NCBI RefSeq assembly: GCF_905475395.1
Contig: NC_058341.1
Span: 31,449,501 to 31,513,500 of the forward strand
Reading direction: 5' to 3'
DNA: 64,000 bases
DNA from: Chrysoperla carnea
Lineage: Eukaryota; Arthropoda; Insecta; Neuroptera; Chrysopidae
Shown here: piece by piece, positions 11,740-64,000 of the stretch
Numbering within the stretch: the stretch's first letter is position 1
Layout: every line of letters starts with the position of its first letter
Made by a program: the position numbers and the translations under genes
Notes under the pieces: generated by a model
The model's database searches: none
Told to the model about the DNA's origin: nothing
What the model saw: only the letters and a program-made list of their open reading frames with translations

Positions 11740-12620
11740 ACTTTAGTTTTTAGTTTATGTATATGAAATATGCCAAGGTGTACTAAGTTTTGTCCCAAGT
11801 TTGTAACGCTTAAAAATCTTGATGCTATGAAAAAAATTTAGGTATAGGTGTTCATAAAATCATTAAATTAGTCCATTTTCGGTCTGTCTGTCTGTCGTCT
11901 GTCCATCTGTCATCACGATAACTCAAAAACGAAAAAACATATCAAGCTGAAATTTTTATATAATGCATCTAAGTGGGCAGTATTATATACATGTGTTCTC
12001 TCCCACTCTATGCAGGCACACAACAGAAGAACTTTTGTATAGCTGAAAAGACATCGAAGCCACGATACAAGTCTTTTTTTGCAATTTCATATAACATCTA
12101 TAATATCTCTTACTTAGATGCATTGCTTAACGCATGTACTTTGTCATACTCGCGATATTTATATGCCTAGATGTAAATCGAACTAGTGGTATATGTGTGA
12201 CATGTATGTATGTGTAATGTGAAAGAGTTATCAACACTGCCTATACATGGTATTTCAACAATTAACTCAGTTAATTGTTTGCTTTCACTTGTTAGATTCT
12301 TTATACAGTAAAATTGAAAAATAATTGTATTGCTTGAGTTATTGTTTCCACGAAGCAATCCCCCTCGTATCGGTCACCAGGCACGAGTTTACTGAACAGG
12401 CAAAAACTGAAAACTGTTTTCGTAAACATCACTGTTTACCCTTAAGGGCGTAAATCAGGTACAAATATAGTAAGTATTATTATGTAGTATGTATTATATG
12501 GGAATATCAGTTCTGTGTGGCTATCTACTTACATTACGAAAAAAAATCAAACGATTCCGTAATCAATACTGTCTGTACATGGTATTTCAACAATTAACTC
12601 AATCAATCGTTTGTTTTCAC
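11740..12620 (+). repeat. interspersed repeat family A, copy 2
   Basis: Same order of blocks as at 10180-10695: CCCAAGTTTGTAACGCTTAA, a GTCTGTC-rich tract at 11882-11912, CACGATAACTCAAAAACG, the TGTTTACCC block near 12430 and ATTTCAACAATTAACTCA. The last block is present twice (near 12250 and 12580), so the copy is partly duplicated. The two copies bracket the 307-bp satellite. Confidence 0.7.
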
Positions 12621-12668: not shown

Positions 12669-13135
12669 AACAAGAGAAATTAAAGAATGGTGCAAAAACA
12701 GCCAGCCGGCAAGAACTAATAAAAAAAAAGATATTTTAGGTTGCAATTTGTCTTGCCATAAATCATAAGGCAGTAAAATTAATATTGGGATTCTTGTTAA
12801 AACTCTGCTAGAGTATAGACGCATTTGTTTTTCGTCTACAACAATATCAAGAATTTTATTTTTATCAAAATAAAAACAACAATATTTCAATTATTAATTG
12901 TTTACGACAGTTACATAAGTATTTTTGTTTGTGTTTAAATTGTTACCTTTTTTACCTGGTGAGTACATACAATAGCTGTTTACTTAGTAGTTAGTTAATT
13001 TTTGTTTTTGTTTTTGTTTTTAATTTTTTTTTCGTATATACATACTTTTAATAATATACTTTTTCAATATTTTTTTTTACTATTATAAACTATTAGGAGG
13101 TGGCTGGAAATGAATCTCCACCAGACCCTTCTCGG

Positions 13136-28300: not shown

Positions 28301-30850
28301 ACAGACAACTTGCTGAATAGAATATTAACATTCTATAAATACCAGAAATTCAATTTTAATGACATAAGGTCATCCATACTTCTTGTGTCATTTTTGGTTC
28401 CGTATACCAGAAGCGACCCTGGCAAGTTATAAGTATGATGCGACATTTCATTATGGCGCCTCGATATACCAATCAATATACAATGACTTATTTGTAATTT
28501 AGAGGAAGAAACGAAGGAATAAAGTTCGAAAAATTGGGGCATTAAGTCGGATTTGAATGTGATTTTCGATTCGTTAGAGCGTCAGGAAGTTTTTTGACCT
28601 TGTCTCATTTATAAGAAGTTTAAAATATGTAATTAGCATAATAAATATGCATTTTAAATTGACCGTTGATTAAATTCACAATTCGGTTAATAGTGATGAA
28701 AATAATTTCAAACTTGTGACACGGTGGTTTTTGGGGTAGCTGAACACGAATATCGAACAGAATTGGTCTTAGAGGTACTTGGTGCAGCGGTATCCCCGTC
28801 GCCTCCTAGGGTTTCCGAGAAATTCGTCATATAATCAGTCCAAACTCGTTACTAGGAAGTTTTTTAGGTCGGTTTCCATTATTTCTTCAATGCCCCTCAA
28901 AGAAATTATTTCCTCACTTATTCTAATTTTTCGACAATTCTTCTTAAATGATATAATAAATTTACTTGTTCTTAACATTTATTTATGCATAAAGTAGTAT
29001 GAATCACGTTTTTTTTTAATTCCTAATAAGTGTTTTCATAATTTTATGCATGAAAAACTCGAAGGAATTACGATAATTGTGATGTTATTTGATTTTTATC
29101 ATTCAAGTAATTACCCGACTATCTAGAAGTGGTATGAATGTATGTTTGTTGGTAAATTTCTTTATTTCATAGTATCCTTCAAACGGCTAGATGGATTCCG
29201 ACATTTAATCCAAATATCCTTAGGTGGATGTTTGAAAAAAACAAAATGGTAGATTTTTGGGACAAAATAGTAATACGAATAATAAAAAAAAATTAACCGA
29301 ACCTATCGAGTGGGGTATCGAAATAAAGGAAATTAAAAAGGGATTACAAAAATATATATAAACTATAGTTTTAATATAGTATAAGAAGGACTTTTAGTGC
29401 CAAGACACTAAAAAGTCTAAAATAATTTAAAAAGAAAAAACCGGACTGCGTTAAATAAAACCTGAAAAGAAAGCAGCAAGTCCAGCAGTTACAAAGCGAC
29501 TTCAAAACTCGGGACTCATTTAAAACTAGACAGGCCCAAATCTTCGGTATAAGGGACCCCTTCTGTTGAAGCCGCTATTTAAACTAATGGACTTGTTTGT
29601 TTCTTTTCAGATTTTATTTAACGCAGTCGGGTTTTTAATTTTGATAATTAAATTTATTTTATAACAATTGTAATAATTGCTTCTTAAAAATTAAAATAAT
29701 TATTTTATTACAGAAACAAGAAACTTTTACGGACTTATTTCGTTCATGTCCAATGGTTTTACGAATTTTAACATGCATGTTTTGTTGGATATCCTGTGTG
29801 TTTGTATTTTATGGAATAACATTAGGATCTGTATCAATTTTTGGAAATTTATACTTAAATTTCATGATGGTAGCATTAATAGAAATACCTGGAAATTTGG
29901 CTGCGTTAATATTCAGCAACAAAATTGGACGTAAAATGACTTTAAGTGGATCCTTCATTATAGCTGGTTTATCGTGTGTAGGATTCACAGTGATACCAGG
30001 TAAATTTTTTTGCCTTAGAAGCATTGAACAGTTTATTTTTGTAATAGAGAGGTATCTCCTTGCGAAAGAGTTACATTTTTGGAATGTACACGTCATGCTC
30101 TTTTATTTGATACCCCACTTGGGTATATTTGAAAATATTCGATTACTCATCCCCACTTTCTCGCTCCACCTTCCCACTCCCCGAAAGTTAAAAATAGTAA
30201 AAACAATCCTTGAAGCTGATTGTATATCTTGTCAATATTTGAACTTAATCGATACACAACTTTTTAAGTTTTTGAAGCACATACCTTTCAATCCCTTACT
30301 CTACTATATTATGTTATGTACATTTATTGTACATAAAAACATTTCTCTTGAATCACTCTATCTATTAGAAAAGATATAAGCAATCATAAGGACAGGCAGC
30401 GGGAAGCGACGTGGAAAGATAAAACTCATGTCTTTCCACGTTGATCACGAATGTTAAATATTTCTGGATGTATAATATTATATTTTCTTCTTTGTAGGAG
30501 AAAGCTGGCTGAAATTATTAACATATTTACTAGGAAAATGTGCCATTACTTCAGCATTTAATTGCATATACATTTATACAACAGAATTATATCCAACACC
30601 ATTCCGACAAAGAGTTATGGGAATTTGTTCATCAGTGGGACGTATTGGATCAATTGTTGCACCACAAATGCCATTCTTGGCACGTATTTGGACACCATTA
30701 CCATATTTAATTTTCGCATGTATGGCTATTTCTGGAGGTTTACTTACACTCATATTTCCCGAAACATTAAATACGACATTACCTGATAGTATTGATAGTG
30801 CACTAAATATTGGAAAATCGAAAAATGATGATAAACAAAATAAGTCTTAA
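19389..30850 (+). CDS. SLC22-type organic ion transporter (MFS), gene 2
   Basis: Twelve-pass solute carrier with complete coding sequence. Exons: 19389-19588, 23961-24192, 24348-24454, 25056-25213, 25804-26126, 29714-29999, 30498-30850, giving 552 residues. The ATG at 19389 follows an A-rich context and opens a roughly 40-residue cytosolic N-terminus before TM1. The loop between TM1 and TM2 has conserved cysteines (C-L-I-P-E-C, K-C-T-R-Y, E-C, I-C, Y-C). S-D-R-F-G-R-K spans the exon 3/4 junction. Exon 5 has L-E-L-L-G-P-E-Y-R and Q-E-S-I-R-W-L (Gln for the usual Pro). Loop 8-9 is S-N-K-I-G-R-K, without the Asp-Arg pair. The last intron found in genes 1, 3 and 4 is precisely absent. TM11 has G-R-I-G (Arg at the charge-selective site). 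The C-terminus is ..D-K-Q-N-K-S. Introns 1 (4.4 kb) and 5 (3.6 kb) are repeat-filled. Confidence 0.9.
19589..23960. other. gene 2 intron 1 (4.4 kb)
   Basis: AT-rich, bounded by GTAAGT and TTTTAG. It contains a possible orphan exon at 19727-19919 (listed separately) and another short open stretch at 20107-20280 that I do not recognise. The rest shows no gene, clear tandem repeat or TE with ends. Confidence 0.55.
19727..19919 (+). other. possible orphan or cryptic exon inside gene 2 intron 1
   Basis: An open stretch bounded by an acceptor-like TTCCATTTACAG before 19727 and a donor-like GTAAATATA after ..CGATTG. It is visibly less AT-rich than its surroundings. The translation contains F-L-R-V-A-S-I-P, then E-I-T-P-E-K-R-R-L-K-G. 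This vaguely recalls the SLC22 'F-L-R..' and 'E-x-x-P-x-x-R-R' segments near TM4-TM5, but the spacing is wrong. It may be an exon relic, an alternative exon or chance. Confidence 0.25.
24800..24967 (-). pseudogene. antisense relic of a non-LTR reverse transcriptase (thumb region)
   Basis: On the minus strand in gene 2 intron 3, the frame reads C-S-L-L-S-Y-G-I-T-I-W followed by D-P-I-F-V-L. This matches the 'S-x-L-x-Y-G-I-x-x-W-G..I-F-x-L-Q-K' segment typical of Jockey/RTE-type reverse transcriptase C-terminal regions. Downstream the similarity fades. It is a 5'-truncated dead fragment and not part of the host gene. Confidence 0.4.
26885..26945. repeat. short perfect inverted repeat (23-bp stem, 15-nt loop)
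   Basis: Arms 26885-26907 and 26923-26945 are exact reverse complements, containing TTAATTTCCATAAAAT and its complement. The AT-rich stem lies in gene 2 intron 5 and would fold in the pre-mRNA. Confidence 0.8.
27890..28085 (+). repeat. interspersed repeat family B, degenerate copy
   Basis: Shares 'GGAACCCTAAACTCGC', 'TTGAAACATA' and 'CTCCATTAAATTGCC' with the better copy at 41078-41453 (there ACCCTAAAATTGCTC, TTGAAACATACCC, CTCCATTAAATTACC). It appears partly duplicated, since an 'ACACTAAACTCTCACTTGGA' block follows near 28050. Non-coding. Confidence 0.6.
29110..29400 (+). repeat. degenerate interspersed repeat
   Basis: Contains 'TCAAACGGCTAGATGGATTC' near 29178 and 'CGAGTGGGGTATCGAAAT' near 29308. 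This order resembles tails of insect repeats with 'AAACGGATGAATCGATTTTG', as at 54760. Recognition is by eye and family assignment is not possible. Confidence 0.4.
29436..29636. mobile_element. MITE with about 45-bp terminal inverted repeats, 80 bp before gene 2 exon 6
   Basis: The left end AAAAACCGGACTGCGTTAAA (29436 on) matches the reverse complement of the right end, AAAAACCCGACTGCGTTAAA (right end 29636). The match continues through 'TAAAACCTGAAAAGAAA' and 'AAGTCCA'. There is no coding capacity. A convincing target duplication is not visible; TTAA occurs near both ends but at unequal distance. The right arm carries TTTGTTTCTTTTCAG, a strong splice-acceptor-like sequence ending at 29610, about 100 bp before the real acceptor at 29712-29713. 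Confidence 0.75.
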
Positions 30851-41779: not shown

Positions 41780-44700
41780 ATGAGTGATTTAAAAAAACAT
41801 GGAGCTGCGGATATCGATGAAATTCTAAAACAACTTGGATTATTTGGAATTTATCAAAAGAAACGATGGATATTGTTTGTAATTACGATATGGGCATTAG
41901 CAATGGTTGAATTTACTTATATATTTACAACAATCAATCCAAAATACAGGTATTAATGTAAACCCGGTATGGATTTTTATTCCATTTACGATACCAACCG
42001 AATGTAACTGACAGATTCGCTGGATAGCGCCTGTCTTAAAAATACAATTTTTACATATTTTGAAGGCATAAATTCGGGTCGATACCATCTATGTATTGTT
42101 TGGCGGTGTATGATTACTTGCCAAGAAATGTGCAAGTATACCTTTTGAATGATTTTTGACACACTTTCAAGAAATTTGATCCTGAATATTAAAAAACCTT
42201 TTTTACCGTCGAAGCCATTTTACAGCAGGAAATAATTCCTTCACTCGAAACAATTTCTGTTATCATATTATATCATTCATATATTCATTCAAAAGTCATT
42301 TTTTAGTATACATTTTTTTTTCTTCTTTCAAGAAAGTTGACCCTGAATATTGACAAACCCTTTTTTCCAATATTCGAAGCCATTTTACAACAAGAAGTAA
42401 TTTCTTGCCTCGAAACAATTTATGTCATTCATCATATTATATCATTCATTACCCTTCAAAAGTCATTTTGTATTTTTTAATATATATTTTTTTCTCCAAG
42501 AAATCTATACATAACAAAAGTCCTTTTTTCCCTATATTCGAGGTGTGGGGTATTATATTAAATCGGTAAAAATTGACGGTATGAGAAAGTATCATTTTTT
42601 CCCCTTCAAAAGCTACATATTAATTTTCTCAATATACTCTTTTCCTCCAAGAAAAAGATGTGCATTTAACCTATCTTACCTGTAATACTTTCCGGTTTAA
42701 CGTGACTTCAAATGAAGAACAAAATAGTATTTCCCAAATTCAGCATGTAACCTATCTTACCTGTAATACTTTCCGGTTTAACGTGACTTCAAATGAAGAA
42801 CAAAAGAGTATTTCCCAAATTCAGCATGTAACCTATCTTACTTGTAATACTTTCTGGTTTAACGTGACTTCAAATGATGAACAAAAGAGTATTTCCCAAA
42901 TTCAGCATGTCAAAAACCTTCGGAAAAGTAATTTCACGTTTTTAGGCGTTTACTTTTCATTTTTGTTGTACACTGTAAGTATCAGGGCTGGATTAATGCA
43001 CGGATACGATTGGGCACAAGCCTAGTGCTACCGATTGAAATAATTAAAGTCAAAATAATTAAAGAAATTTTAACATAAAATTAAACTTACGTTTAAATTA
43101 TTTCAATATAATTTAAATAATTTTTCATATTACACGTGATGGTTATATTTTTTCATTAAAATAAAAAGGGCCACTAACTTGGGGGGGGGGGGGCCTCTTT
43201 TGATTTTCGGCTCTTAAATGTTTAATCGGGCCCTGGTAAGTACTATGTAGCAAAAAATAGTCGACCCATATTGACGATAAGCAATGCAGAAAAGAAAACC
43301 GTATTAGAATAAATTTTTAAGTAAAAAAAAACAATTCAAAGAATTACCAAATTCAAATTCATGGCATAAATATTAAAACTTATTTGCTTTATAATCTTAG
43401 GGCAAAATGATTTAATCGAATTTCAAGGCTGAAGTTCATGCAGCACTTTTTTATCGCATACAATTAGATAATTAAAATAATTTGTTAAATTTTAATTATC
43501 TCCCGCCTTTGTTATTAAAATTGCAGACAGAGCCCATAAAAAACCCTATTGCATTTAGAAGCAATTATTATTTATATATGTGAAAGTATTTAATGTTGTA
43601 ATTTCCCGTTAGACGGAAAACTAAGTAGGAAATATTGTTGTAGCTTCCAAAAAACGGGCCAAAATACACCCTAACCTGTGGTAACTTGACCCAGACCAAC
43701 TAAGCATAACGCAATGAGTTCATTTTCGGCAATATGTGTTGAGTTAGCGCTAGTTGGAGAGGTTTATGGTAACTTGTTTACAATCTGACGAAAATTACAA
43801 TATTAATACATTGGCATACAGGATACTTTTTGAAGCTGACATATGCTTGAAGCTCGAAAAATAAGTTTTATCGATAAAAATACTCCAAACAATAAATGTT
43901 GGGTCTATAGGTGCACATCTTACGCAGACATTAAACTTGACCTAGGTCATTTTAAAAATTTCAAAATTGGTGTGACTAAATTTATGAATTTTATTTTATA
44001 AGTTGAAGTGCAATAAATGTTTATACTTTTAAGAATATTTTTTAGTTAAAACTTTTATAATTCATTTTTTATTTTTAAATTGAATTTTTTGTATATTTTT
44101 TCAGATGTTCAGTACCATCCTGCGAAACACCAGACCAGACTGAATATAAACCAATATGGTTAAATAATGCTGTGCCCTACAAAGATATTCAGCCCGCTAG
44201 ATGTAAACGATTTCAAGTTAAAAACGAAACAGAACAAAGTTCATTAGGAGAATGTGATTCAGAATTATTTAATATTAATGTTATCGAAGACTGTGATGAA
44301 TTTGTATTTGACACTAAACACACACTAATTGTTCAGGATGTAATTAACTTTTATATTTTATCTTCCAGGGGCGTATACAGACAAATTTTCATCCCTTAAT
44401 AAGTACTCTTCCAGGGACGTATACACATACAAATTTATTTCCCTTTAAAAGCTTAAAATTATTTAATTTTATTTCCAAAAATTGTAGAAAATCAAATACT
44501 ATATAATATCACTCTGATTTTTATAATTATCAATTTTTAGGGTTATTTTGACCCGAATATAGCAAAAATTCACTTAAAAATTCGATTTAAGTCGCAGTTT
44601 TCAAAATAACTGACCATATAATAAAGCCGAATCCATATTTGCCTGCATAGGCGAAGATGTACTTACACAATATATTTTGAAAAATTGGCCTGACATTACT

Positions 44701-47043
44701 TTTATCTAGATTTTAGTTTTTCTAGGGGTTCAAAACATCTTTTTAAGCCTGAGCCTAATTATGCCCCAGTAATAAAAAACTTTTAATCTCTCTTAAAACT
44801 ATTCTTATTTTATTTTTCAGTTCAAACTGCTGTGTGACAAAGTTTGGATGATTGGAATTCCTGGAACAGCTCATTCTAGTGCTTTATTTGTTTCGTTGCC
44901 AATATCAGGCTATATTGCAGACAGGTATCTATGCTCGTCATTAAGTTCAAAAAAAAAGACATTTTTTGACCATTTTGATTTTTCAGAGTTGGAAGAAAAA
45001 AAGTGATAATATTTGGATTATTATTGGCTGGAATTTTTAATATAATTAAATCGTTTTCAGTATCATTTTGGATGTTTGTAGCATGTGAATTCTTGCAAGC
45101 TGGATCAGCTAGTGGAGTATTCCCGTCGATATTTACTTTAAGTAATTTGTGATTATTTAACCTTAATAAACTAAATGCTATAAAATTTGGGTAAAAGGTT
45201 TGAGTTTTCATTTACTAAACGCTAGGAATCGCCATGTAAAATGAATTCATTCATTTTTCCTTTACTAACAAGTACTTCATATTATATGAAGATACGTTTT
45301 TATAGGTTTTTTTGCAGATAAGACCATTTAAATCTAAAAAACAACTCGTTAAATATCTACTAAGTACAACTTCGTATGTACAAATGAATAAGTCGATTAA
45401 ATATCTGCGCAGTTGAGGTACTTTTGTGATGTTTTTTCTAAACGCTTAAGCTAATTAGCTTAAGTAAAAATCATTGAAAAATTAAAATTAAAAATGAAAT
45501 ATATAGTTCAAAACTTTTCATTTCCTACAAAAATATGCTATATTTACGGAATTTTTAGTATTTGTTTAGATTGTTTCTTGGGCTATATAATATCAAAGAA
45601 AACAAAGTAATTAATACAAATTCTCTTTAGTTGCAGAATTTTCACCAGCGGAAAGACGAGTTTTTGGAGGTGTTATCTCATTCTTATGCGTTGCTGTTGC
45701 CGAAGTTTCTATAGCATCAATAGCTTGGAATATCTATTCATGGCGCTGGTTTTTACGCTTTGCAACTATCCCGTGTGCCCTAATTATATTATTTACGCCA
45801 TTTTTACCGGAATCGATTAGATGGTTGATATCAAAGAATAGAATTGGCGAAGCAAATACTATATTGGAAACAATTGCTAAAGCTAACGGCACTAAATTGA
45901 CAGAAAAACATCAGTTACAATTAAAAGATTCACAGGGCGATTCAAAGGTGAAATTAGAAATTAATTAGTTAATTTTTTTAAATGAAATATGACCCAGATA
46001 TGACAGCCTCTAAAAAGTGAAACGCATTTCGCGCTACATTCATCGTCAGATGAATACATGGCATGAAAAATAGAAATAATCGGGAATTTTTTGGAAAGAA
46101 TTGGCAAAAAAATTGATTAATTAGCTGCAAGGCACAAATATCAAATAATATTTAGTAATAATAGGTATAAATTTCAGGGTGATAATGGTGAGAGTGAATC
46201 ATTAAAAGACGTTTTCAAAAGCGTTCCAATGATTTTACGCTTGGGAACATGTGCGTTTTGCTGGATAACTTGTGCGTTCGTGTTCCATGGATTATTATTT
46301 ATGGCTGGTGAAATATCCGGAAATAGATATTTAAATTTTATTCTGGTTGGATTAGTTGAAATTCCTGGAAGTTGCATATCTTACGTTTCATGTCGTCGAT
46401 TTGGACGAAAATTCACAATTAGCGTAGCATTAATTGTGGTTGGAATTTGTTGTGGATCATATATTTTTATTCCAGGTAAAAATTTTGCATTTAATAAACA
46501 GTATATAGGATTGAAGGCTAGTTGCTTTCCCTTAGTGATGATTAAGTAAAGATTTTAACTAGAAAACTATATTATTTTATCGAAAGTCATTTATTATTTA
46601 TTATTTTATTCGTCAAATTTTTCAGATGGACATTGGTTACGATTAGCTATGTTTTTATTGGGAAAATGTGCCATTACTACAGCATTCGGCAGTTTATACA
46701 TTATTACTGCTGAAATCTATCCAACACCATTTCGACAGACATTAATGGGTATATGCTCAATGCTTGGTCGTATTGGGTCCATGTCAGCCCCACAAATGCC
46801 AGTTTTGGTAAGAATGTTTAAGTAGATTGTAACAATAAAAAATATCTTTTATTTATGAATACTTCTTCATTTTTGTAGGCGACAATCTGGAGTACTTTAC
46901 CAATATTAATATTCAGCTTAATATCAATAATGGCAGGATTACTTTCACTTATTTTACCTGAAACATTAAATACAACCTTACCAGACACAATTGAAGAAGC
47001 TATAAATATTAATAAGAAAACTGTTGAAAATACAAAATTATAA
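41780..47043 (+). CDS. SLC22-type organic ion transporter (MFS), gene 3
   Basis: Complete twelve-pass solute carrier, 541 residues. Exons: 41780-41949, 44105-44339, 44821-44924, 44987-45141, 45631-45947, 46178-46475, 46626-46807, 46879-47043 (TAA). The N-terminus M-S-D-L-K-K..D-I-D-E-I-L-K-Q-L-G leads into TM1. The extracellular loop has C-S-V-P-S-C, C-K-R-F, E-C, D-C and L-C plus one N-E-T glycosylation site. A-D-R-V-G-R-K spans the exon 3/4 junction, and P-E-S-I-R-W-L follows TM6. Loop 8-9 is C-R-R-F-G-R-K. TM11 has G-R-I-G-S. The protein ends ..N-T-K-L, a class I PDZ-ligand pattern. It is closest to gene 4, whose start is only 703 bp downstream. Intron 1 (2.2 kb) is full of repeats; introns 3, 6 and 7 are short. 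Confidence 0.92.
42170..42660 (+). repeat. degenerate tandem repeat, about 150-165 bp unit, about three copies
   Basis: 'CAAGAAATTTGATCCTGAATATT' near 42170 recurs as CAAGAAAGTTGACCCTGAAT near 42333, and shorter echoes ('CTCCAAGAAA') occur near 42494 and 42644. Between them 'CGAAGCCATTTTACA', 'CTCGAAACAATTT' and 'TTCAAAAGTCATTTT' recur in order. It lies in gene 3 intron 1, immediately before the 81-bp repeat. Confidence 0.7.
42668..42910 (+). repeat. 81-bp tandem repeat, three copies
   Basis: Units 42668-42748, 42749-42829 and 42830-42910 are nearly identical (each starts AACCTATCTTACCTGTAATA or a one-base variant and ends CAGCATGT). Because 81 is divisible by three, a 121-codon frame runs through the array (42660-43025). 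It has no signs of being a gene and lies within gene 3 intron 1. Confidence 0.9.
42983..43235. mobile_element. hAT-type MITE (253 bp) with 8-bp target duplication
   Basis: The left end CAGGGCTGGATTAA matches the reverse complement of the right end, CAGGGCCCGATTAA (12/14). It is flanked by GTAAGTAT (42975-42982) and GTAAGTAC (43236-43243), a 7/8 duplication. Like the hAT copy at 495-1094 it has a 13-base G run near its right end (43181-43193). There is no coding capacity. It sits in gene 3 intron 1, and its duplicated target resembles a splice donor. Confidence 0.85.
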
Positions 47044-47049
47044 AATTTG

Positions 47050-47055
47050 AATAAA
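47050..47055 (+). terminator. candidate polyadenylation signal of gene 3
   Basis: AATAAA begins 7 bp after the stop codon, which would make a very short 3' UTR. No other exact AATAAA was noticed before the gene 4 leader, but variant signals cannot be excluded. Confidence 0.4.
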
Positions 47056-47360
47056 TCGCGTCAAAATCTAGTGGTTAATTATTTTTTCTCCTTCAAGATA
47101 TCAACTTCAATATTGCAACTTTAATGGAGATTGCTAATTTTTTTCATTTTACGTTAATTGTGTGACTTATTTCTCTAAATTATCTTAAGAAATGTAACGA
47201 CCTGGAACGTTTTTTAATTTGTTGCTCTAATCATTCTGATTATTTGTTCTCGGTTATCTTTTTAACTTCCTAGTGGACTATTAAAAGAGAGATCTATTTT
47301 TATTAGACATTTAGACAGTATTGTTGTGAGTTACTGTGATTTAAATCGTTATTCATTTCA

Positions 47361-47618: not shown

Positions 47619-47746
47619 TTAAAATAGTCTTGCAGCGATAATGCTTTGAGGTGGCCGATAATAATTAAATTACTTATGTTAATGAAGTATATATTCGTTT
47701 TCAAGAAGCACCTAAATATACGTTTTTATTCATTATAACTAGTAAA

Positions 47747-50700
47747 ATGAGTGAATTTAAACAAAAAACAACAAATATCGATGAAATTCTTAAACAACTT
47801 GGATGGTTTGGGAGGTATCAACAGAAACGTTGGATATTATTTATAATTATTATATGGGTATTGTTATTAACCGAATTTAGTTATGTATTTTCAACAATTA
47901 ATCCAAAATACAGGTATGTTGTACTAAAACCAATGTTTCTGGAAAATCATGACTAATGTCCAAGATTACCAACTTTTTAAAATATCAATTTATATTGCCT
48001 TTACAATAAAAACAAATTTTGTTTTTACACAAATAATTTAAAAATAAAAATATTAATCGTAGCACCAAAAAATTTAAAAAAAAAAGTGAATCTTTGAAAT
48101 TTTCCAGAGTTGTTTATTGGATTGTAAAAACTACGCGCCAAAAATCGGCCACTCAGAGGAGTGAGGAGTACTTAATGTTAATTTTTTATAAGGCATAACT
48201 TTTAAATTTAAACTTTCTTTCTTTCTCTAACGATTTAAAAGATGGATACTTTTTCGTTTGATTAAATGAGCAAAACATGCACCATTTTAAAATTGGTATA
48301 TCTCAATCAATTTTGATGTTAGAAAGCTAGAATTTTTACATAAACTTTCTTTAATTTGATGCAACAACTACCACCCCTCAAAGAAGGGTAATTGAGGGTT
48401 TATCAAATTAAAAAGGGGGTTGAGAACCCCCTGAGTTTTTGATACAATGTTTTTACAAACTTATAAACATCTGTGGTAAATTTCAAGGATGCAACACTTT
48501 TTCCTTTTAGAAATTGAATTTCAGTGTACTATCGGAAATATATTGCTTGACAGATGTTTGGTACCAGATTGTGAAACAGCGTCCAACACTGAATATAAAC
48601 CAGTATGGTTAAGTAATGCTGTGCCTTTCAAAGGAAAACAGCCATCCAGATGTAAACGATTTCAAATTAAAGCGGATAAAGAACATAGGTCAACAGGAGA
48701 ATGTGATTCAGATTTATTTAATTACAATGTTATTGAAGACTGTGATGAATTTGTATATGATACCAAACATACAACAATTATTCAGGATGTAACTATACCA
48801 TGTTCCAAAATAAAAAAAGATACTGGGTTAAATGATTTTATTTTCGAAACAAAAGATCGCAATAAGCCACTCAAGAACAATCTTTGCCAGTTTTAAGAGT
48901 GGTGCGAAAATTCTTTTTGGCATGGATTTCGAACCATACCTTATTTGTTATTAAGCTCGCAAGCATCTGGATCTATAAACAGACCCTGACCCTAATTGTT
49001 AATAAAACAACCAAAAAAGATTTTTTAGGAAAAAAAAAACTGGGAAAAATTTGTTTTCATAACTTTTTTAGGACACCTAATGCGGGGGTATCACTCAACA
49101 GACTCTTGAAACATTATTAAGACCGTTTAACTGTTGAGAAATATTCCATCATTCATTTATTAAACATTTTAAAATCATAGCAGAAGGGTGAAAAAAAAAA
49201 TGTTACTTAACACCTGAACACTTTTTTTTTAAACTTTTTTTTCAAGCTTCTCAATGGAACTTATATCTTTTTCGTTCTAAATTCATTCTTTTTTCATATT
49301 TTGATTCACCAGTGCATTGGTAGGTACTAGAAAATTAATGTCTTTAATTAATTAATTTTTGTATTGTTTTCCCCTCTGCTATTAGTTATCCTGGGAAATA
49401 AATAAAAATAGCTTAGCAACTACAGATTTTCTCATGAAACGTTTAAGTTAATATCTGAAAATTTGCATCTTCAAATCATCTTACGATTTTCTCATTGCTA
49501 TGCAAGATTTGTTTGTGTCAACTCAGAACTTCTTTAACTGATGCTTCATTCACCTGATATTTTCAGTATTAAGAAGTTAGCCATATCAAACCATAAATGA
49601 TAAGTGCATTTCAACTGAATGCCATCGCTTTTTTAAAGTCTTAAAGTACATTATGACATATTTTAAGCGTCACATTTTTATTTTTAGTTCAATTTACTAT
49701 GTGAAAAAGTTTGGATGATTGCAATACCTGGGTCACTTCATGCTATTGCATTATTTTTGGCTTTACCAACAACTGGGTACATCGCAGACAGGTAATTTAA
49801 CAAAAAACTTTCACAATGGAGACTATAAAATTTTCATTTCAGGATTGGAAGAAAGAAAGTTATAATTTTTGGTGTAGTGCTAGGGGGATTATTCTGTTTT
49901 ATCAAATCGTTCTCTATATCAATTTCGATGTTTGTAATTTGTGAATTCTTACAAGCTGCAAGTGCTGGTGGATCATTTACATCAGTTTATACTTTAAGTA
50001 ACCAACCAAAATCTATTTAAATTGCAACGTAAGCAAATAAATTAATTACAAAAAATATATATACAAAAATTTTAGTTGCAGAATTTACTCCAGCAGAAAA
50101 CCGTCTTTTGGGTTGTGTTATATCATTTGGATGCCTATCTCTTGCACAAATGTCCATAGCAGGAATTGCTTGGATGAGTAATTCATGGCGTTTATTTCTA
50201 CGTTTGGTAACAATACCAACTGCGTTGGTATTATTTTTTATGCCATTTTTTTTGCCCGAATCTATTCGATGGTTAATATCTCAAAATAAAATAAGTGAAG
50301 CTACTGCTATTTTGGAAAATATTGCTCAAGAAAATGGTACTGAACTAAAGGAAGAACATAAGTTGCAATTAAAAGTTATGCTTGATAATTCAAAGGTATT
50401 TTGTTAATCATACAAATTATTTAGCCGCAAATATATCAATTGCAAAATTTATCCGACAATTTTAGGCGCTTTTACGCAGTCAAAAATTTTCCAATCCCCG
50501 TGGTAGATAATTTCTTTGAGAATCTTCCTACAGGAAATGATTGTTAAACTAATCATTTAAATATTATCAAAGATAATTAATGAGAGCTGTTGGATGTTTT
50601 ATTTAAATTTCGATTTGCCCCAATTTCTTAGATCAATTTTGTATTTTATAAATGGTCAACTACACGGTAAGAAATTTTTTAAGGTAAGCAATAGTTATGC

Positions 50701-52136
50701 CCGACGAGTCAATGCAATATTCATATCTACTGATTGGCGGTACCCACAATACTTCTGGTAGAAAGCCCTATACAATACTGTAATATTACTTATGCTAACG
50801 TAAACGCCATACATTTCTTACCGTGTACCATGTAGTCACCATCACTGTTTCTTACTGTAGTCATCAATGACTCGAAATACGTATTTGTATTTTACAAAGA
50901 TTGATCTAGGAAATTTCTAGAAGTTATTTATCCATGAAATCATATGCTGACGAGCATCTATTCTTCTTTTTTGTCTCTGAATTTTTATTATTAGATATAA
51001 TTGATTCATGATTCAGCTGGAATTTTAGGATTCAAACAAAATTCGTAACGAATCACTAAAAGACGTTTTTAAAAGTATTCCCATGGTTATACGATTAGTA
51101 ACATGTTCAATTTGCTGGATAAGCTGTACATTTATATATCATGGTCTTTTTATAATGGCTGGTGAAATATCTGGATATCGATATTTAAATTTTATTCTAG
51201 TTGGATTAGCTGAAATGCCTGGATCTATCATTTGTTACGTTTCTTGTAATCGGTATGGCCGAAGATTGACTATGAGCGTGGGATTAATAACAGTTGGTAT
51301 TTGTTGTGGATTTTATATATTTATACCTGGTAAATTATTATCATATATTAAATAGAAATTTCGGAAACTTTTCCGAAGTTTAATATGTTAAAAGCTACAG
51401 GTTTTTCAGCACATCATATAGCCTAAGTGGTTTGATGGATTTTGATAAATGATCAAAATAAAAACTTTTGTTTCGTCTTAATCATAGGAATCTTATAGAA
51501 TGCAGCTATTACTATCTATGCAGCTAAATTAGTATGGCCACTGTATGTGGTGACTTTCAAAGCATTCTGTATCAATAAATTTTCAACTGATTTATAATTT
51601 GTTGGGGTTCATATTCTAGGAAAAATGTACCACAAAAGAAATAAATAAACTCTCTTGTTCTTTATAAGATTATTTTCTTTAATGGGCATGCTTTTTAAGG
51701 TATTGTAAAATTATTGATAAATTTTCAGATGGACATTGGCTAAGATTAATAATGTTTTTATTGAGTAAAAGTGCGATTACTGCAGCGTTAGGAACTTTAT
51801 ATATTATTGTAGCGGAAATGTACCCAACATCATTTCGGGTAACATTAATAAATGGATGTTCAATGTTTGGACGTATTGGTCAGTTAATAACACCAACAAT
51901 GCCAATTTTGGTGAGAATATTAAAGAAAATTAACCAAAAATATTTTATCAATTTATCAATTATTTTTGAAGGCCACTTACTGGAATATATTGCCAATATT
52001 GATATTCAGCTTAGTATCAACAACTGCAGGATTCCTGTCACTTATACTACCGGAAACTTTAAATACAACTCTACCAGATACAATTGAAGAAGCGGTCAAT
52101 ATTAATAAAAAAACTGTTGAAATTACAAAATTGTAA
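47747..52136 (+). CDS. SLC22-type organic ion transporter (MFS), gene 4
   Basis: Complete twelve-pass solute carrier, 542 residues. Exons: 47747-47913, 48554-48788, 49688-49791, 49843-49997, 50076-50395, 51029-51329, 51729-51910, 51972-52136 (TAA). It shares with gene 3 the N-terminal I-D-E-I-L-K-Q-L-G, the six-cysteine extracellular loop, A-D-R-I-G-R-K after TM2, P-E-S-I-R-W-L after TM6 and a C-terminus ending ..I-T-K-L (class I PDZ-ligand pattern). Differences include S-K-S for the usual G-K-C in TM10, no N-glycosylation sequon in the loop, and loop 8-9 C-N-R-Y-G-R-R. Exon 8 is joined through a 61-bp intron with acceptor ..TTTTTGAAG, less pyrimidine-rich at its end than the others but in frame. 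It is a recent tandem duplicate of gene 3 or the reverse. Confidence 0.92.
50661..50827. mobile_element. Tc1/mariner-type MITE (about 165 bp) in gene 4 intron 5
   Basis: TACACGGTAAGAAAT (50661-50675) and its exact reverse complement ATTTCTTACCGTGTA (50813-50827) bound a 167-bp segment. The outermost TA on both sides fits a TA target duplication (element proper 50663-50825). Subterminal similarity continues weakly. There is no coding capacity. Confidence 0.7.
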
Positions 52137-54925: not shown

Positions 54926-57900
54926 TTTAAGCTACAGACCTGATATGAATAGGGCTTTGAATATAGTCATGATTTCTGTTTATTACTGGATATTTTGTTA
55001 TTCCAGACTTCAGACAAATTTCAACGTAAAATCTCATTTTTTTGTATTGGTTTTTGGCGGCTGGCTGTTTTTACTCTTGTCTTTGGTTGACTTTTAATAA
55101 TTTTATAACACATTTTCATAGGCGTGTAATAAATATTAAGGTAAGTTTTTATGACGAAATTCAAATATGTCTTGAATGTGTTGATTTAGATGAATTTACC
55201 AATGATTTTTCTTTTCATACTAACCGTTGATGCAATGTAAAAGAACAGTTAATATTTTTTGTGAACTGTTTGATAAAAAATGCAATGGGATCATTTTCCC
55301 CACTATCCTTACAAGGTTGTATAGAATTCCCTTTTGAGAAATATTGAATAGTTCTATAAATTTGAACAGATCAAAAGAAATTTTACATACCAATATTGTA
55401 ACATTTGAAAAAAGAACTCGAAAATATTTCGACGTTGTAACATATATCGAATAGTTTGCTCGTATAGCGTCAGCCTTAGGTGCTACAATGTAGATATCAT
55501 AAAATGAAATAAATGTAAAATATGTTTATGTGTATATATTTTTCAAGTTCAATTCTATTTTAAAAGAATGACAGGGAATCACAAATTATAGGTGATAATT
55601 TTTAATTTTTAATCTTTTTGCAACATTGTCTTTAGCATAATAATTCAAGGTAATATTGTTTCATACATTTTTAATAAATTATTTCATTTTTCATCATGTG
55701 TGAAAAAGTTTAAAACAATAATACTTTTAAAGGTTGAAGCCCGAGTGGGATAGGATTAGGCCATAAATAAATCCCTTTTTATATATTTTTTTCGCCAATT
55801 TCTCCAGCCCCTCATTTGTCTGGATAGGCTGTGTGAACCGTCATGCATGTGTTCCACCAGCCCATCACAAGTATTTAAATTTTTAACATCAAGTACTCGC
55901 AACCCTATTGAGCATCCCCATTTATCAATTGAGACACCCGTGGGTTGACAAAAAAACTAATTGAAAAAATATTTTGTTTTCATTGTTTTTTTTTTTTTTA
56001 ATCTCAAAGAAAACTCTAAATTATTATATTCCACATAACAGTTTTGTGAATGACCTTATAAAGAGTACTCAAAAAATAACACAAAAATTGCGGAAATAAA
56101 TCATTTTTATTTATTGACAAATTGCATTTTGAAGTCCATCTTAATCGTATTCTAAAAAAAAAAATTACTAAAAACTAAATTATTCACGTTTTATTCGCGT
56201 TGTACTCGGATAACCGCTTTGCGCGGTAATTTTTGAGTTAAAAAGACACAAATACAAGAATCGTTTAAAATGTCTCCAATCACAAACACGAATTTGAATG
56301 TCCCGCTAATGTACTTTATTTCGTTAACTAAGTTAAACACCAATAGATGTCAGGAAGAGTCGTATTTTGCAGTTTGTTTCAGTTTTTCCTGAAAACACGG
56401 AAAAAGGAAATTTTTTTAAAACCCAGCTATATCGATTTTGGAGCCGTTTCTCCAAAGCAAGGTTAATAATCTGAAGCAAAAGCTTTAATAATAAGCTTTT
56501 TATCCAATATGTGACCTTTTTTGTTTAGCAACCTTTAATTTTAATTGAATTATAAGACCATAAATCCAAAATGATTATTAAATTAATAAAAGGTAATAAA
56601 ATAAATGTTTTATTAAATCATAGTTGTCCACTTTAAATCTGCTTTTGTTATTTAAGTATCGAATAAACAGAATTACAACCATTAAGATTTGCTAAACGCT
56701 TATTTAAATTAATAAATGATTTATGTGTTTTTTAATAGTTAATAATTAGTTAATTAGATAAAAACGCAATTGTTATTACACTTGTACGTAAATTTATTGA
56801 TTAATTTAAAGAATACACATACACTTGACATAAATAAATTTTAATGCATGTAAATTAGTACAAATTAGATTTTGTATGTAAATTATAATCAAGTTTATAG
56901 TTTCAATTAGAAAAATATTTATGTAATTTTTTAAAACTTGTTTAAAATGAAAACTTCTGCAATAAAATCCAATCAGCAAAAATAAAAACTAGTCATATTT
57001 TTTCAATAAATAAAATAAGTTAATATCTAATAGACGACTAAACTGAAAGCAAGAATAAAACCCTTTGTATCTGTTTTAAAAAACTCTGTCTAATGAGACA
57101 TCACTCAACTTCCATAGCATTTAAAAATAAATTATTTGCACCCCTTCCCTCCCTGCGTTAATGGTATTGTCATAAAAAGATTCACATTCTAGTCTTCTAG
57201 AAAAAAATTTGCAGCCCTTTATCTTGAACCGTTTGAAAGTTATTTTGCTGTACATTAAATTATCTTTCTTTCCAATCTTTAGGGCTTACCATGTGTGCCG
57301 TATTGTTTATTCTAAAACAAATTTGCCTATATTCCTCGATCAACTGAAAGGATAGAAAAAAGAATCTTCTTGAATTCGAGGTTAATTTAAAGTGAAAGAA
57401 GTGAACTTTGAAGATGTTTCATTTGGTCCAATACTCTCCTTGTCGGCAGTACCTTGAAAATTAAGCTTGAAAATTAACCTGAACGTGAATATAAAAAACA
57501 GCTTTATATTCATGGGAAAAAGAGCATCATTTTAGTAGAAAATGTTACGTTCTTCATATTAATTCTCTATAATTTTTTTCTTAGTTCGTTTACCAATGTT
57601 GCTTTTTCTTAACTAAAAAAAGACACGAGAAGTTGAAATTTTTCCACAAAGAGATATGATCGTTTGAAATTTTTTTATTGTATCTATAAAATAAACAGTT
57701 TACACTTTTTTTTAATCTGTTTTTGATTAATTTTTTTTTTAATTATCTATATATTATCGTAAATAAATTTTAAACAGTTGAGTAGGTCGCTGTCACTACG
57801 TCGATTATGTTTTATTAAATATATTAATATAATTTTGTTTTTAACACAGTTTGGAAGTTGTTGTAATAGGTCCGCTAATCCTAATCGAATTTTTCAGCAT

Positions 57901-59124
57901 ATCATTTACGTTGCATAGGACAATGTGTTAACACCACTTGTGTTATAGTATCAAGATGTGCTGTGAAGATGAAGGGTAAAAAAAATAAATAATGACTTTT
58001 GAAATTAGTATTTTCAATCAATAAAGCAATAAATTTTTTAACGAAATACTAGAATAAAATGCTAATAATCTAGTTTCAAAATATCATATTCATAAGTCAT
58101 TTGTGCAATAAAAAGATTTTATTTCCCAGATTTTCCATTATATTTGTGTAATATTTTGTATATCTTTCAATTTGCTCCGCCATAATTGCTTCCGAACTAA
58201 TCTCTCATTCCTGTATAAGGTCCTCCATGGAAAACTTTTTTAGAGAATATAAAATTTTAGAGTTTTCTTACCGATCTTAATAAAAATTCGCAGAGAAAAT
58301 TATGCCATAAATTTTTCTGTAAAACTAAATATACAGAAGTTTTAACGATGATTGATTTTATGAATTTGCATAATATTATAAATATTATTTTTGCAAATGT
58401 TGACTATTGATCCCAGCACTTCTTGTAGAAAAAACGATACCTTAAGAATATAATCAATTTTTCTTTTCTTTTCATATTGATAAGATAAAATTTATAGGCT
58501 GTAGATATAAAATAGTATTGGCAAAAATAAAGCTGTTTTGTTTGATTCAGAATTGAAGCATGGTATAAAAATTTGGAGAAATATAATTTTGATAATTTGC
58601 AAAGTGCTTATATAAAATGATAATTAATTTCACACAGGTATCCTACTTGTTCACTGAAACCATGATAACAATAACAATCTATAAAAATTATTTTAGGATA
58701 TTTTTTAACTTAAGTTGCGTAAAAAATTACTTTGAAATTTTCCAGCTCTTATAATAGAAAAGCGATAATGGTGAAGCATTTGTTCGAGTTTCAGAGTGTT
58801 CATTTGGTTAGAAAATATTCCCTTCAAGAACCACAATAAAAATATTTAGCTAAATTAGATAAATTTATTTAAATGTGGATCCTAAAAGGCATATATTTTC
58901 ATAAGATGTATAAGACATCCCAAAAAAATGCTCATCTTAACTAAATCTTATCTAAATTTTTTATTTATTTAATTAATATTTTTTTAATTGGGAAATATCA
59001 TATAGCACAGCAGTGCGAATCGTAGATTAGTTTAAAATGGAAAATCGAAAATTGAAAGTGTAATGTATGATGATGTATATGTGAATGTATATGTGAAATG
59101 TGTATGCTTTTGCTGTGACTATAT
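54926..59124. other. 4.2-kb AT-rich region, nothing recognised
   Basis: No exon-like stretch, tandem repeat or element with ends was found. It is mainly low-complexity A/T with short homopolymers (for example T runs at 55987-55999). Confidence 0.5.
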
Positions 59125-59540
59125 ATACAGGACGTCAAATAGCCCTTTTTCACACCCTTATATCTCAGAAACTACTTGAGCTATAATGTTGCGCTTTTCA
59201 ACTTAAGGAGATATATACCCTGGGACGCCGTAAATCAAAGCTCACGTTCACGGCTCTCATCGTTTCCGAGCAATAACGCGTCAAAAAACGGCCACGCCCC
59301 GAAATTTTGTTACTCACTCATATAAATTCACAGCAAAACTGAGAAATGATAGAAAGATGCGGTTTTCATTAAATTAAATTAGAGAAAAATCATACCCCAG
59401 AAAAACTTCCAAATATCAAAATTTTTAACGGGAAATGGGAAATTTCGCTAATTTAAGGTGCATTTTTTCCCTATTTAAAAATACATGGGAAAATATGAAC
59501 CAATCAGAAGGCTAGTTTTTTTTCCTATACAATTTGTATG
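59125..59540 (+). repeat. probable interspersed repeat of unknown class
   Basis: Begins ATATACAGGACGTCAAATAG, resembling the 'TATACAGGGTGTCC' starts of common insect repeats. It continues with 'TATCTCAGAAACTACTTGAG', 'GGGACGCCGTAAATCAAAGC' and 'CGGCCACGCCCCGAAATTTT'. It is less AT-rich than its flanks. The right end is not identifiable. Confidence 0.35.
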
Positions 59541-59794
59541 GTAAAACTTAAATACGCTTAAAAATTTGTTATTTATATAATTTTAATTAAATATTGATTA
59601 AATTTGAATAAATATTATATAAATATTCAAAAATTAATTGTGTATTTCAATATTTCCAACTTAAAATATTATAAAAATTAAATAAAATATATCTTATTAC
59701 TAAGACCCTATGAAATTCAAAGTACCATGTAGAAAACATATTAAAATTATTATGTTACATTAATTAGGAAAATTTTAATTTGCTTTTATAGCGA

Positions 59795-60060
59795 AAACTG
59801 TAAGAGATAGAACAAAAGTTTAAATGCAAAAAATGTTCCTTGCATAAAATTAAACAATTCTGTATGAAAAATTTTGTTGTAAAGGTAATTGTTTTCCCGT
59901 GAAAAGCAAATAAAGTAAAAAATTAAATTGCAATTTTCGGAAAAAACGGTAAGAGATAGAACAAAAGTTTAAATGTAAAAAATGTTCCTTACATAAAAAT
60001 AAACAACTTTTGTTTGAAACATTTTTTCGAAAAAACAATCATTTTCCCTCGAGAAAGTAA
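59795..60060 (+). repeat. tandem pair (149-bp unit) of a repeat family A segment
   Basis: 'TAAGAGATAGAACAAAAGTT' occurs at 59801 and again at 59950, each followed by 'AAAAAATGTTCCTT', a '..TAAACAA' segment and a TTTTCCC block. The same segment occurs once in each family A copy (near 10445 and 62225). Confidence 0.75.
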
Positions 60061-60264
60061 ATAACCAGTCCTGTTTTTTTCGTTAATGCAAAATCCACCT
60101 ATTTTTGTCCTTAAATTTAAAAAAAGTATAAATATAATTTTACAAGAAGTTTTAAACCATTTTGCTTAAATGGCTTGTAGTGTTTACTACTAATTGTTGC
60201 AATGACAACGAATTTTATTTTCTTAAAAACAATGGTATTGTTATGTTCAACAATAAATAATCTT

Positions 60265-60560
60265 GCAACCCAATTTTGAAGCCGACACCCTCAATCGATT
60301 ACGTTGAAATTTTGTAAGCACGCTGACTTTGAATGACATTGAATTTTTATGGTTGACTTGATCAAATTTTCTCTTCGCTTCCGCCATATTTTGTTAAATG
60401 GGGGGGGGGGGATGTTATTACTCAATTTTAAAGCAGATATCTTCAACCGATTGAGTTGAAATTTTGTATACACGTTTAGATTTGATAACAAAACATGGTA
60501 AGGTTAGTGGCGTTATTATTTTTCCATCACTTCCACTATAATTGATTTATCTATAAATGA
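60265..60560 (+). repeat. diverged tandem pair, about 155-bp unit
   Basis: 'CCCTCAATCGATTACGTTGA' near 60289 matches 'TCTTCAACCGATTGAGTTGA' near 60440. Both are followed by AATTTTGTA..CACG and then a 'TTCCGCC'/'TTCCACT' segment. A 12-base G run is at 60400-60411. Confidence 0.55.
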
Positions 60561-60639
60561 TTCAGCTATACCGATTCTAAGGGACTTCTAAATTATAGAA
60601 AGATGCGATTTTGGACATTCGACAGAGACTTGCTTGAAT

Positions 60640-62047
60640 TGAGGGTCAACCTATGCGCAGTACTATTACATGTAATCCTCGTGTGCGCACAAGCAATTTT
60701 TAAGGCCTACATGTGCGCAGTAACAAAATATAAATTTAGCGTATGCGCAGTTGCAAGATTCAAGATAAATGCATGCGCACAACTATAATTATTGATTAAT
60801 CTGTGGGCACTTCCCGGATATAACACCCAAATATGCGCACTAACAAAATATAAAGTCCCTGTATGTGCAGTTGTAATATTCAGGATCAACCCATGCGCAG
60901 TATTATTACATGTAATCCACATGTGCGCACATGCAATATATAAGGCCTACATATGCGCAGTAGCAAAATATTAACCAAGCTAATGCGCAGTTCTAAGATT
61001 CAGGTAAAATGCATGCGCAGAACTATCCTTTGTGATTAATTTATGCGCATTTTCAATATTTAAGGACCAAATATGCCCATTTACAAAATATAGGGTTCCC
61101 GTTTGCGCAGTTGTAATATTTAGAATCAACCCATGCGCAGTACTACATCATGTAATCCACATGCGTGTACTAGCAATATATAAGGCCTATGTAAACGCAG
61201 TAACAAAATATAAATTCAGCGTATGCGTAGTTGTAAGATTCAGGATAAATGCATACGCACAACTATAATTATTGATTAATCTGTGCGCACTTGCCGGATA
61301 TAATACTCAAATATGCGCACTAACAAAATATAAAGTCCCTGTATGCGCAGTTGTAATATTCAGGATCAACCCATGCGCAGTACTATTACATGTAATCCAC
61401 ATGTGCGCACTAGCAATATATAAGGCCAACATATGCGCAGTAGCAAAATATTAATGAAACTAATGCGCAGTTCTAAGATTCAGGTAAAATGCATGCGCAG
61501 AACTATAATTTGAGATTAATTTATGCGCATTTTCAATATTTAAGGACCAAATATGCCCATTAACAAAATATAAGGTCCCTGTTTGCGCAGTTGTAATATT
61601 TAGAATCAACCCATGTGCAGTAATATTTCATGTAATCCACATGCGTGCACTAGCAATGTATTAGGCCTACATACGCGCAGTAACAAAATATAAATTCAGC
61701 GTATGCGTAGTTGTAAGATTTAGGATAAATGCATGGGCCGAACTATAATTTGTGATTAATCTGTACGTACTTCCAATATATAAGACCCAAATATGCACAC
61801 TTACAAAATTTAAGGTCAATGTGTGCGCAGTTGCTGTATTCCAGATTATCCCATGCGCAGAACAATTATATGGGATCAAAGTGTGCGCAATACCAATATA
61901 TAAGACCCAAATATGCGCACTTACAAAATATAAGGCCCCTGTATGAGCCGTTGTAATATTCAGGATCAATCCATGTGCAGAACTATTTTATGAAATCAAG
62001 CTGTGCGTATTACCCATAAATAAGGCTTAAATATTTGCAGTTACATA
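60640..62047. repeat. 30-bp minisatellite with 240/480-bp higher-order structure
   Basis: About 47 diverged 30-bp units, each carrying a [CT]GCGCA core (typically TATGCGCAG or ATGTGCGCAC). The 480-bp block 60781-61260 is repeated at 61261-61740 with few changes, and partial 240-bp similarity exists within it. The period is ten codons and most units lack stops, so several 60-100-codon frames with a decapeptide repeat (C-A-V-x-x-Y-K..) exist on both strands. They are by-products of the repeat and not genes. The array runs straight into a family A repeat piece at 62048. Confidence 0.9.
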
Positions 62048-62350
62048 ATATCTGTCTGTCCATATGCACATCTGTCTGCCAACACGATAACTCAAAAACG
62101 AAAAGAGATATTAAGATGAAATTTTTATAGCGTACTCAGGACGTAAAAAGTGAGGTCAAGTTCGTAAATGATCATTATACGTCAATTGATTTCTGGGTCT
62201 GTGGAACCCATCTTGTAAACCGTTAGAGATATAACAAAAATTTTAATGTAAAAAATATTCCTTATAAAGAAATAACCAACTTTTGCATAAAACATTTTTT
62301 CGAAAACATGACTGTTTACCCATGCGGACGCAAATTAGGCGTAAATTATA
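62048..62350 (+). repeat. interspersed repeat family A, copy 3 (partial)
   Basis: Has the GTCTGTC tract, CACGATAACTCAAAAACG, 'GCGTACTCAGGACGTAAAAA', 'TGAGGTCAAGTTCGTAAATG' and the TGTTTACCC block, in the order seen at 10280-10570. The 5' portion is replaced by the 30-bp minisatellite. Confidence 0.75.
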
Positions 62351-62567
62351 TAGAATGCATTATATAATAATCAATATCAGTTATATGAAAAGGAAATTTT
62401 CATTATAATATTTATAAATAACACTATTTTGATGACATCTTGTTCGGCATATTTCTTGACGTACGAGGCTCAGTATTCAACAGTAATTCAATGTATGCAT
62501 AATGGTGATTTAAAATTGTTACAAACACTTTCAACTTAAATACTATTGCCTGGCAAAAAGAAGTGAT
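62351..62567. other. short AT-rich spacer before the palindrome
   Basis: No feature recognised between the family A repeat and the left arm of the palindrome. Confidence 0.4.
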
Positions 62568-63548
62568 ATCCCACCAAAAACATAAATGTGTAAAAAGGCG
62601 TAGATGAATTCCAATAAACTCAATTACGTCAGCCCAAAAAAGTTGTGAAATCCCGTAGAGAAAAAAATTATTCGAAAAAAAATTATAAAAATGGCATAAA
62701 TTTATTGAGTAACTTTTCCGTAAAGAAACATTAAAGTATTACATTAGCAACTTTTCGGTGACTTCATACCTACACGCACCTGTATAGGAGAACAAAAGAT
62801 AATCGTTAACCCCCTACTATCTCCCTCCTCCCCTCTAATGTTATGACGTTATAATTTTTTCACAACTTTTATTAAACATCAAAATTTAAATTTAAACAAT
62901 CAAAGTATTCTTTAGATTAAAGTCAAGCACCTACTTAACAAAGGCCTAATTTTTTTACTAAAGTACGAAAATTGTTGGTTTAAATTTCTTGTGTAAGTTT
63001 CTCCTTAGTACGTATTTATTTAATATTTTACTTCGCAAGTTTTTTATTTTTAGATTCGTTTTTTGTATTCCGAAAACTTGCGAAGTAAAATATTAAATAA
63101 ATACGTACTAAGGAGAAACTTACACAAGAAATTTAAACCAACAATTTTCGTACTTTAGTAAAAAAATTAGGCCTTTGTTAAGTAGGTGCTTGACTTTAAT
63201 CTAAAGAATACTTTGATTGTTTAAATTTAAATTTTGATGTTTAATAAAAGTTGTGAAAAAATTATAACGTCATAACATTAGAGGGGAGGAGGGAGATAGT
63301 AGGGGGTTAACGATTATCTTTTGTTCTCCTATACAGGTGCGTGTAGGTATGAAGTCACCGAAAAGTTGCTAATGTAATACTTTAATGTTTCTTTACGGAA
63401 AAGTTACTCAATAAATTTATGCCATTTTTATAATTTTTTTTCGAATAATTTTTTTCTCTACGGGATTTCACAACTTTTTTGGGCTGACGTAATTGAGTTT
63501 ATTGGAATTCATCTACGCCTTTTTACACATTTATGTTTTTGGTGGGAT
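62568..63548. repeat. near-perfect 981-bp palindrome (476-bp arms, 29-nt loop)
   Basis: The left arm 62568-63043 and right arm 63073-63548 pair base for base with no indel (all checked positions sum to 126116). I saw no mismatch on reading through both arms. The loop is 63044-63072. The ends ATCCCACC and GGTGGGAT are sharp, and the flanking sequences differ on the two sides. No ORF or known transposon protein is present. It may be a fold-back element or an inverted duplication; transcription would give a long hairpin RNA. Confidence 0.92.
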
Positions 63549-64000
63549 TTAATTGACACGAACGAAATATTTAGAGTTCAATAATTTACATTAATATTAT
63601 TTATCATAATTGCAGACGGAAAGTTTTAATTTCACACCAAATTGTAAAAAAAAAATGCGAAAATAAGAATTATTATTTGTAAAACAAAAATGGAAAAATA
63701 CTTAATTCTTTTTTTTTTTTTTTTTTTTTAATTGTTGATAAAACAGAGGTCATTTATTTCTGGATTTAATCTTCATTACTCTCTATTCAACAATATTATT
63801 AGTTATATTTATATTCTTTTATCCAATTCCGGATTTATATAAAAATTACTTCATGTGAATCATTCTGACAAAAAAATTTTGTTTGTTTTTGGAAATATTT
63901 ATTAATAATTGTATATTATCTTTATTATACAATATAATTACGATGCATTGAAGTAATAATTTAGTAAAAATGAAAAATAAATACTATAAGATAAATTTAA
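63549..64000. other. AT-rich tail of the window
   Basis: Contains a T run at about 63711-63729 and no gene or repeat with ends that I can recognise. Confidence 0.5.

Follow-up and report, generated by a model that had tools for sequence, protein, structure and literature searches.

The window studied here, the whole 64-kb stretch of DNA that was analyzed (C5:31449501-31513500), contains near its right end a palindrome with long arms. Is it a unit that moves by itself, a hairpin-RNA locus, or part of something larger, and how have its arms stayed alike? A reading made before any database search had proposed a fold-back transposon without coding capacity or a hairpin-RNA locus feeding endogenous siRNAs. 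We searched the window's own assembly (559 Mb) and show that the palindrome forms the precise right terminus of a non-coding element of 4.55 kb that is dispersed and has spread recently.

A perfect palindrome in the window

All 476 bases of one arm pair with the other (476/476) with no indel and 100% complementarity, which bears out the perfect arms and 29-nt loop of the sequence-only reading. The chance expectation for exact 476-nt arms in 64 kb is about 2e-244. The arm sequence occurs nowhere else in the window; there are just the two arms. At the palindrome edges the only direct match of at least 2 bp is the self-complementary AT, and there is no 8-10 bp duplication. Pfam gave no match for the longest open frame that touches an arm, which is 104 aa long and extends from the left arm into its flank. 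In Rfam no family reaches its gathering score on the palindrome; there are 11 matches, all below it, and the miRNA families among them were rejected as reflecting the hairpin shape. Compared with phage, plasmid, and prokaryote collections, the palindrome gave nothing but one 18-mer in L001, an isolated 19-bp match.

The rest of the window holds genes and other repeats. Several MFS/sugar-transporter-like genes in tandem (Pfam Sugar_tr, MFS_1) have exons at 3266-7544, 23944-30847, 44079-47060, and 47669-52084, and the transporter stretches at 44-47 kb and 48-52 kb are clear duplicates. A LINE-like sequence at 13097-18107 has two long open frames, the second with endonuclease, reverse transcriptase, and RNase H domains. 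Both it and the transporter exons lie upstream of the palindrome, and they make the window look like animal DNA, probably of an insect. A fragment of a hAT transposase dimerization domain is found at 583-930.

The palindrome ends a 4.55-kb element

Copies of the palindrome share more than the arms. With 62053-64000 as the query (best 40 of 6,152), 38 of the 39 other copies stop at 63548 or at most 11 bases beyond it, and the single exception stops 82 bases short. All but two of the 39 match from the first base of the query, the remaining two from bases 3 and 75. None of the 39 other scored copies extends any farther into the right flank of the window. On the left, with 56001-62567 as the query (best 35 of 11,958), 34 of 35 other long matches begin at 58922-59002, with 26 of the 35 starting at 58993-58997. 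In the remaining long match a rearranged left piece precedes the start at 59416; the listing also had nine short fragments. As the right and left ends are common to the copies, we place the element at 58997-63548 (Table 1). It has no open frame longer than 106 aa.

The flanks had been described as unrelated, and to each other they are: no relatedness was found between the left and right flank of the palindrome (247 of 300 shuffles score as high). The right one is new DNA, as had been noted, while the left one is the rest of the repeated element.

Table 1. Features of the element and its terminal palindrome (window positions)
Feature	Position	Strand	Basis or remark
Whole non-coding dispersed element, 4,552 bp	58997..63548 (left boundary 58996 or 58997)	+	Ends common to copies
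Left subterminal stem, 59000-59013 with 59110-59124, 14 pairs, one bulge	59000..59124	+	Tentative
Partial pieces with internal duplication, related to the module at 62082-62352	59794..60064	+	Self- and sample comparison
Central tandem array, 120-bp period, 240- and 480-bp higher order	60638..62051	+	
Right module, about 77-86% to a very abundant dispersed repeat	62082..62352	+	Self- and sample comparison
Element's own 215 bp between right module and palindrome	62353..62567	+	Beside the palindrome in other copies
Left arm of terminal palindrome	62568..63043	+	Self-comparison of window; genome copies
Loop, 29 nt	63044..63072	n/a	Inverted relative to rest of element in 4 of 40 scored copies
Right arm	63073..63548	-	Outer end ...GGTGGGAT forms the element's right terminus

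The right module also matches 10301-10571 of the window at 84.5%. That match lies in a second module-array-module repeat (10142-12285), with 307-bp units between copies of the same abundant module. The start of C1 (L002) is filled with units of about 306 bp, probably the same satellite as at 10142-12285.

Copies across the genome

The arm query returned 78 matches in the best 40 of 240 candidates, which make up 38 pairs and two single arms. The gap between paired arms is 29 nt in 27 pairs, 28 nt in 10, and 27 nt in one. Both arms are identical to that of the window in 13 of the 38 scored pairs, the window's own included, and this is a stronger sign of recent spread than the perfect pairing of the window's arms alone. 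The terminal 21-mer of the arm occurs 202 times in the genome (94 forward and 108 reverse; its reversed control 0 times), and as these are exact arm ends we estimate about 100 copies of the element. Among the 100 places listed for the 21-mer, 82 form 41 pairs, 38 of them spanning 970-994 bp, and 18 are single, one of these only because the listing ends there.

The 200 bp left of the palindrome (62368-62567) were found at 98-100% identity in the best 40 of 102 candidates, window included. These lie directly beside a listed palindrome in 35 of the 40 matches, and a longer query recovers full copies at three of the other five. A search with the arm had been suggested as a check for a dispersed family with target duplications; the family was found (202 arm ends), and no target duplication was seen at the window copy. 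As the same palindrome recurs in the genome, a one-off template-switch duplication was rejected. No copy was found in 29 ten-kb stretches of the genome (290 kb), in line with a family of about 100 members in 559 Mb.

The sample was also compared for inverted repeats. Among those with arms of at least 100 bp, none combines near-identical arms with a tiny loop (satellite-filled L002 left out). A relation of the palindrome to 13 other inverted repeats from the window and the sample was rejected, with nine at chance level. Four have few of 60 shuffles scoring as high, namely L022 4925-5261 (2), L010 (4), L007 7889-8621 (4), and L005 2135-3060 (0); their matches to the palindrome are short or AT-rich and away from the termini. 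L020:5699-8135 is a young long inverted repeat; its 897-bp arms are 99.3% identical and separated by 644 bp of spacer, with an open frame that continues from the spacer into the right arm.

Arm variants and flipped loops

The identity of the arms had been attributed to recent origin, gene conversion, or selection. Taken alone, 0 differences in 476 bp are no proof of extreme youth, since an assumed mutation rate of 3e-9 per site per generation leaves room for as many as about 1 million generations. The variant copies do support homogenization. In 14 of the 25 pairs that differ from the window's arm, the two arms agree in both length and score. Five copies show an identical net gain or loss of length on the two sides (475/475, 477/477 twice, 482/482, and 483/483). 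Variants were compared by length and alignment score, and that the changes fall at the same positions in both arms was deduced from these rather than read letter by letter. The arms are unequal in the other 11 variant copies: six differ by no more than 4-9 bits, two have one arm slightly shorter than the other (473/476 and 471/475), and three have one clearly shorter arm. The equally changed arms suggest that one was copied from the other. Within a subfamily, identical arms are explained by descent from a single master; changes common to both arms between subfamilies call for arm-to-arm copying at some stage.

The loop is flipped in four of the 40 scored copies (C1:87095449, C3:53343956, C2:90895657, and C1:89722437). 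In their alignments the palindrome is 100% identical to the opposite strand of the window's, with no change in the direction of the left module, from which we conclude that the loop has inverted. Their scores are 1770-1773 bits, compared with 1674 when the window copy itself is read backwards. Loops can also be inverted by ordinary recombination of one arm with the other.

Insertion site and element ends

The window copy sits between T and T, at the site AAAT|TTAA, and no direct repeat of at least 3 bp flanks it, so that no target duplication is seen. The flanking T is enriched and not invariant among copies: 26 of 33 agree with the window at the left T, and 22 of 38 at the right one. Only 16 of 33 have the A that precedes the left T. 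Read inward, each end of the element starts with ATC (3 bp). Since 75 of the 78 arm matches start at query base 1, the terminal AT is part of the element. We looked for a subterminal inverted repeat pair of about 11-15 bp, and the longest found within 60 bp of the ends is 7 bp, a chance level (103 of 300 shuffles have one as long). The absence of an inverted motif above chance at the ends argues against a classical TIR transposon. A 14-pair stem is present at the left end only; its computed fold of -28.6 kcal/mol is equaled by 8 of 200 mononucleotide shuffles, which supports it weakly.

Two PHIS elements were compared and rejected. ISL2EU, as described, follows a rule of AT target duplication with a TIR starting GG, and here the ends start with ATC. 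Spy is described as having TIRs and as inserting within AAATTT without duplication; the site of the window copy is similar, but no inverted repeat above chance connects the ends here.

Tandem copies and Helitron replicases

Some copies lie head to tail. On C2 two palindromes are 4,582 bp apart, and a right-truncated copy at C130:190665-193936 ends 371 bp before a full copy at 194308. At C3:53330546-53344939 two copies are in opposite orientation with their palindromes outermost, 14.4 kb apart, an arrangement that may be due to chance.

The genome has 64 matches over the cut-off to Helitron_like_N (the Helitron replicase domain), many with long open frames, as compared with none in 14 control genomes. 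The 84 copy places listed have no such match within 13.9 kb, and none of the matches could be singled out as an autonomous partner. Of the 64 matches, 35 are on C6, a 38.6-Mb contig. Seven are found in C3:3767553-3809834, mostly at intervals of 5,813 bp, which resembles a tandem array of Helitrons.

How the element may move and keep its arms

Our favored reading, with a probability of about 0.55, is that this is a non-autonomous rolling-circle element of the Helentron/HINE kind. A Helitron-type Rep/helicase supplied by its host genome would move it in trans, and the arms would be copied or repaired from each other. A short 3' hairpin of the Helentron kind would have grown into the 476-bp stem, which could act as the transposition terminator by analogy with the hairpin of Helraiser. 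In a single-stranded intermediate the end of the element may fold back, and one arm could be copied from, or repaired against, the other. Such fold-back copying, or hairpin nicking, would leave the arms identical and the loop sometimes inverted. Less probably, the end of this eukaryotic transposable element, a 476-bp perfect hairpin, might be rebuilt in each round by fold-back priming and hairpin nicking, joining rolling-circle tandems with a parvovirus-like terminal hairpin transfer.

An element of another kind, with a terminal hairpin replicated by hairpin transfer as in the rolling-hairpin mode of parvoviruses, is unlikely, though it would account for the terminal position and identical arms, would have the flipped loops (4 of 40 scored copies) as its direct footprint, and could draw on the inverted pair on C3. 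The window copy is palindromic at one end only, and the head-to-tail tandems suit a rolling circle. We hold it similarly doubtful that this is a cut-and-paste transposon with asymmetric ends or some other unclassified DNA element. Its ends are precise on both sides and share the inward ATC, and the insertion site is not unlike the AAA|TTT target of Spy, which is also described without a duplication; against this are the missing target duplication, the ends without an inverted match above chance, and the A before the left T, matched in fewer than half of the copies (16/33).

The proposals made from the sequence fare less well. That the palindrome alone is a fold-back (long-TIR) DNA transposon, moved by a cut-and-paste transposase of the Mutator, P, or PHIS type, agrees with its shape and with a dispersed family of conserved arms; mobility and lack of coding capacity hold good. 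The claim that it stands alone does not, as the palindrome makes up the last fifth, on the right, of the 4.55-kb element. The left flank travels along (40 scored matches, with 37 of 39 from query base 1 and 34 of 35 to about 58997), and no 8-10 bp duplication lies beside the palindrome, which makes this reading very improbable. With the left flank and both boundaries common to the copies, a stand-alone fold-back element or MITE was rejected. Neither the inverted repeats at both element ends nor the 8-10 bp duplication of Mutator- and P-type elements was found. A hairpin-RNA locus selected for a role in feeding endogenous siRNAs is improbable as well. A transcript of the palindrome would fold at a computed -792 kcal/mol, but about 100 dispersed copies sit at an element terminus, no coding target was recognized in the arms, and all Rfam matches are below the gathering score. 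Fold-back reads are known (PMC12870357). An assembly or library turn-around artefact had nevertheless been judged less likely from the start, rightly so: the palindrome recurs in 38 scored pairs on chromosome-scale and small contigs and no scored copy has the right flank of the window, so that we regard an artefact as extremely improbable.

Three features are unusual here: how large the terminal palindrome is, how well it is conserved over about a hundred insertions, and the flipping of its loop. As a rule, long perfect palindromes are unstable; this one has lasted through about a hundred insertions, and its two arms have often changed alike. Should the arms be rebuilt from each other at every move, the family would be a natural record of a hairpin-templated transposition step, and the role of the Helitron 3' hairpin could be tested with an extreme natural example.

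Comparison with known systems

The terminal hairpins of parvoviruses have identical arms, occur in flip and flop orientations, and are present at both ends. The palindrome described here is likewise terminal with identical arms and flips, while those hairpins are viral and at both ends, and the analogy is one of mechanism only.

The fold-back transposons Tetris (PMC4079207) and Tm1 (PMC3169594) resemble the element in their long inverted repeats and internal tandem repeats, and Tetris is also non-coding. They differ, according to the cited descriptions, in having the inverted repeats at both element ends and target duplications of 8-10 bp.

With Helitrons the element shares tandem copies, including a 3'-truncated one; inner copies of tandem Helitrons are described as 3'-truncated (PMC7492417). 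As with Helraiser, its ends are precise and a hairpin is found at the 3' side. In the account of Helraiser, this hairpin is the terminator, and its loss raises read-through and truncation (PMC4778049). Helitrons as given there start with TC, end with CTRR, have a 19-bp palindrome, and insert at A|T, whereas the element here runs ATC...GAT and sits at T|T (PMC4778049). A literature search of partial coverage, which is no proof of absence, found no Helitron or Helentron with a long terminal palindrome.

The likeness behind the favored reading is to HINE/DINE-1 elements, which are non-autonomous Helentrons. In the published descriptions, HINEs have left and right modules around satellite-like tandem repeats and a T-rich target without duplication (PMC4067079, PMC7492417). 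Like them, the element is non-coding, with two modules around a tandem array. It has a palindrome at its right end, and the window copy sits at T|T without a duplication, flanking T being enriched but not invariant among the copies. We infer that it works like a HINE; full membership is not claimed, as the subterminal inverted pair was looked for and not found. The 3' palindromes reported for HINEs are 5-10 bp (PMC4067079). In place of such a short hairpin, and with no subterminal pair, the element has 476-bp arms at its very terminus and a loop that flips.
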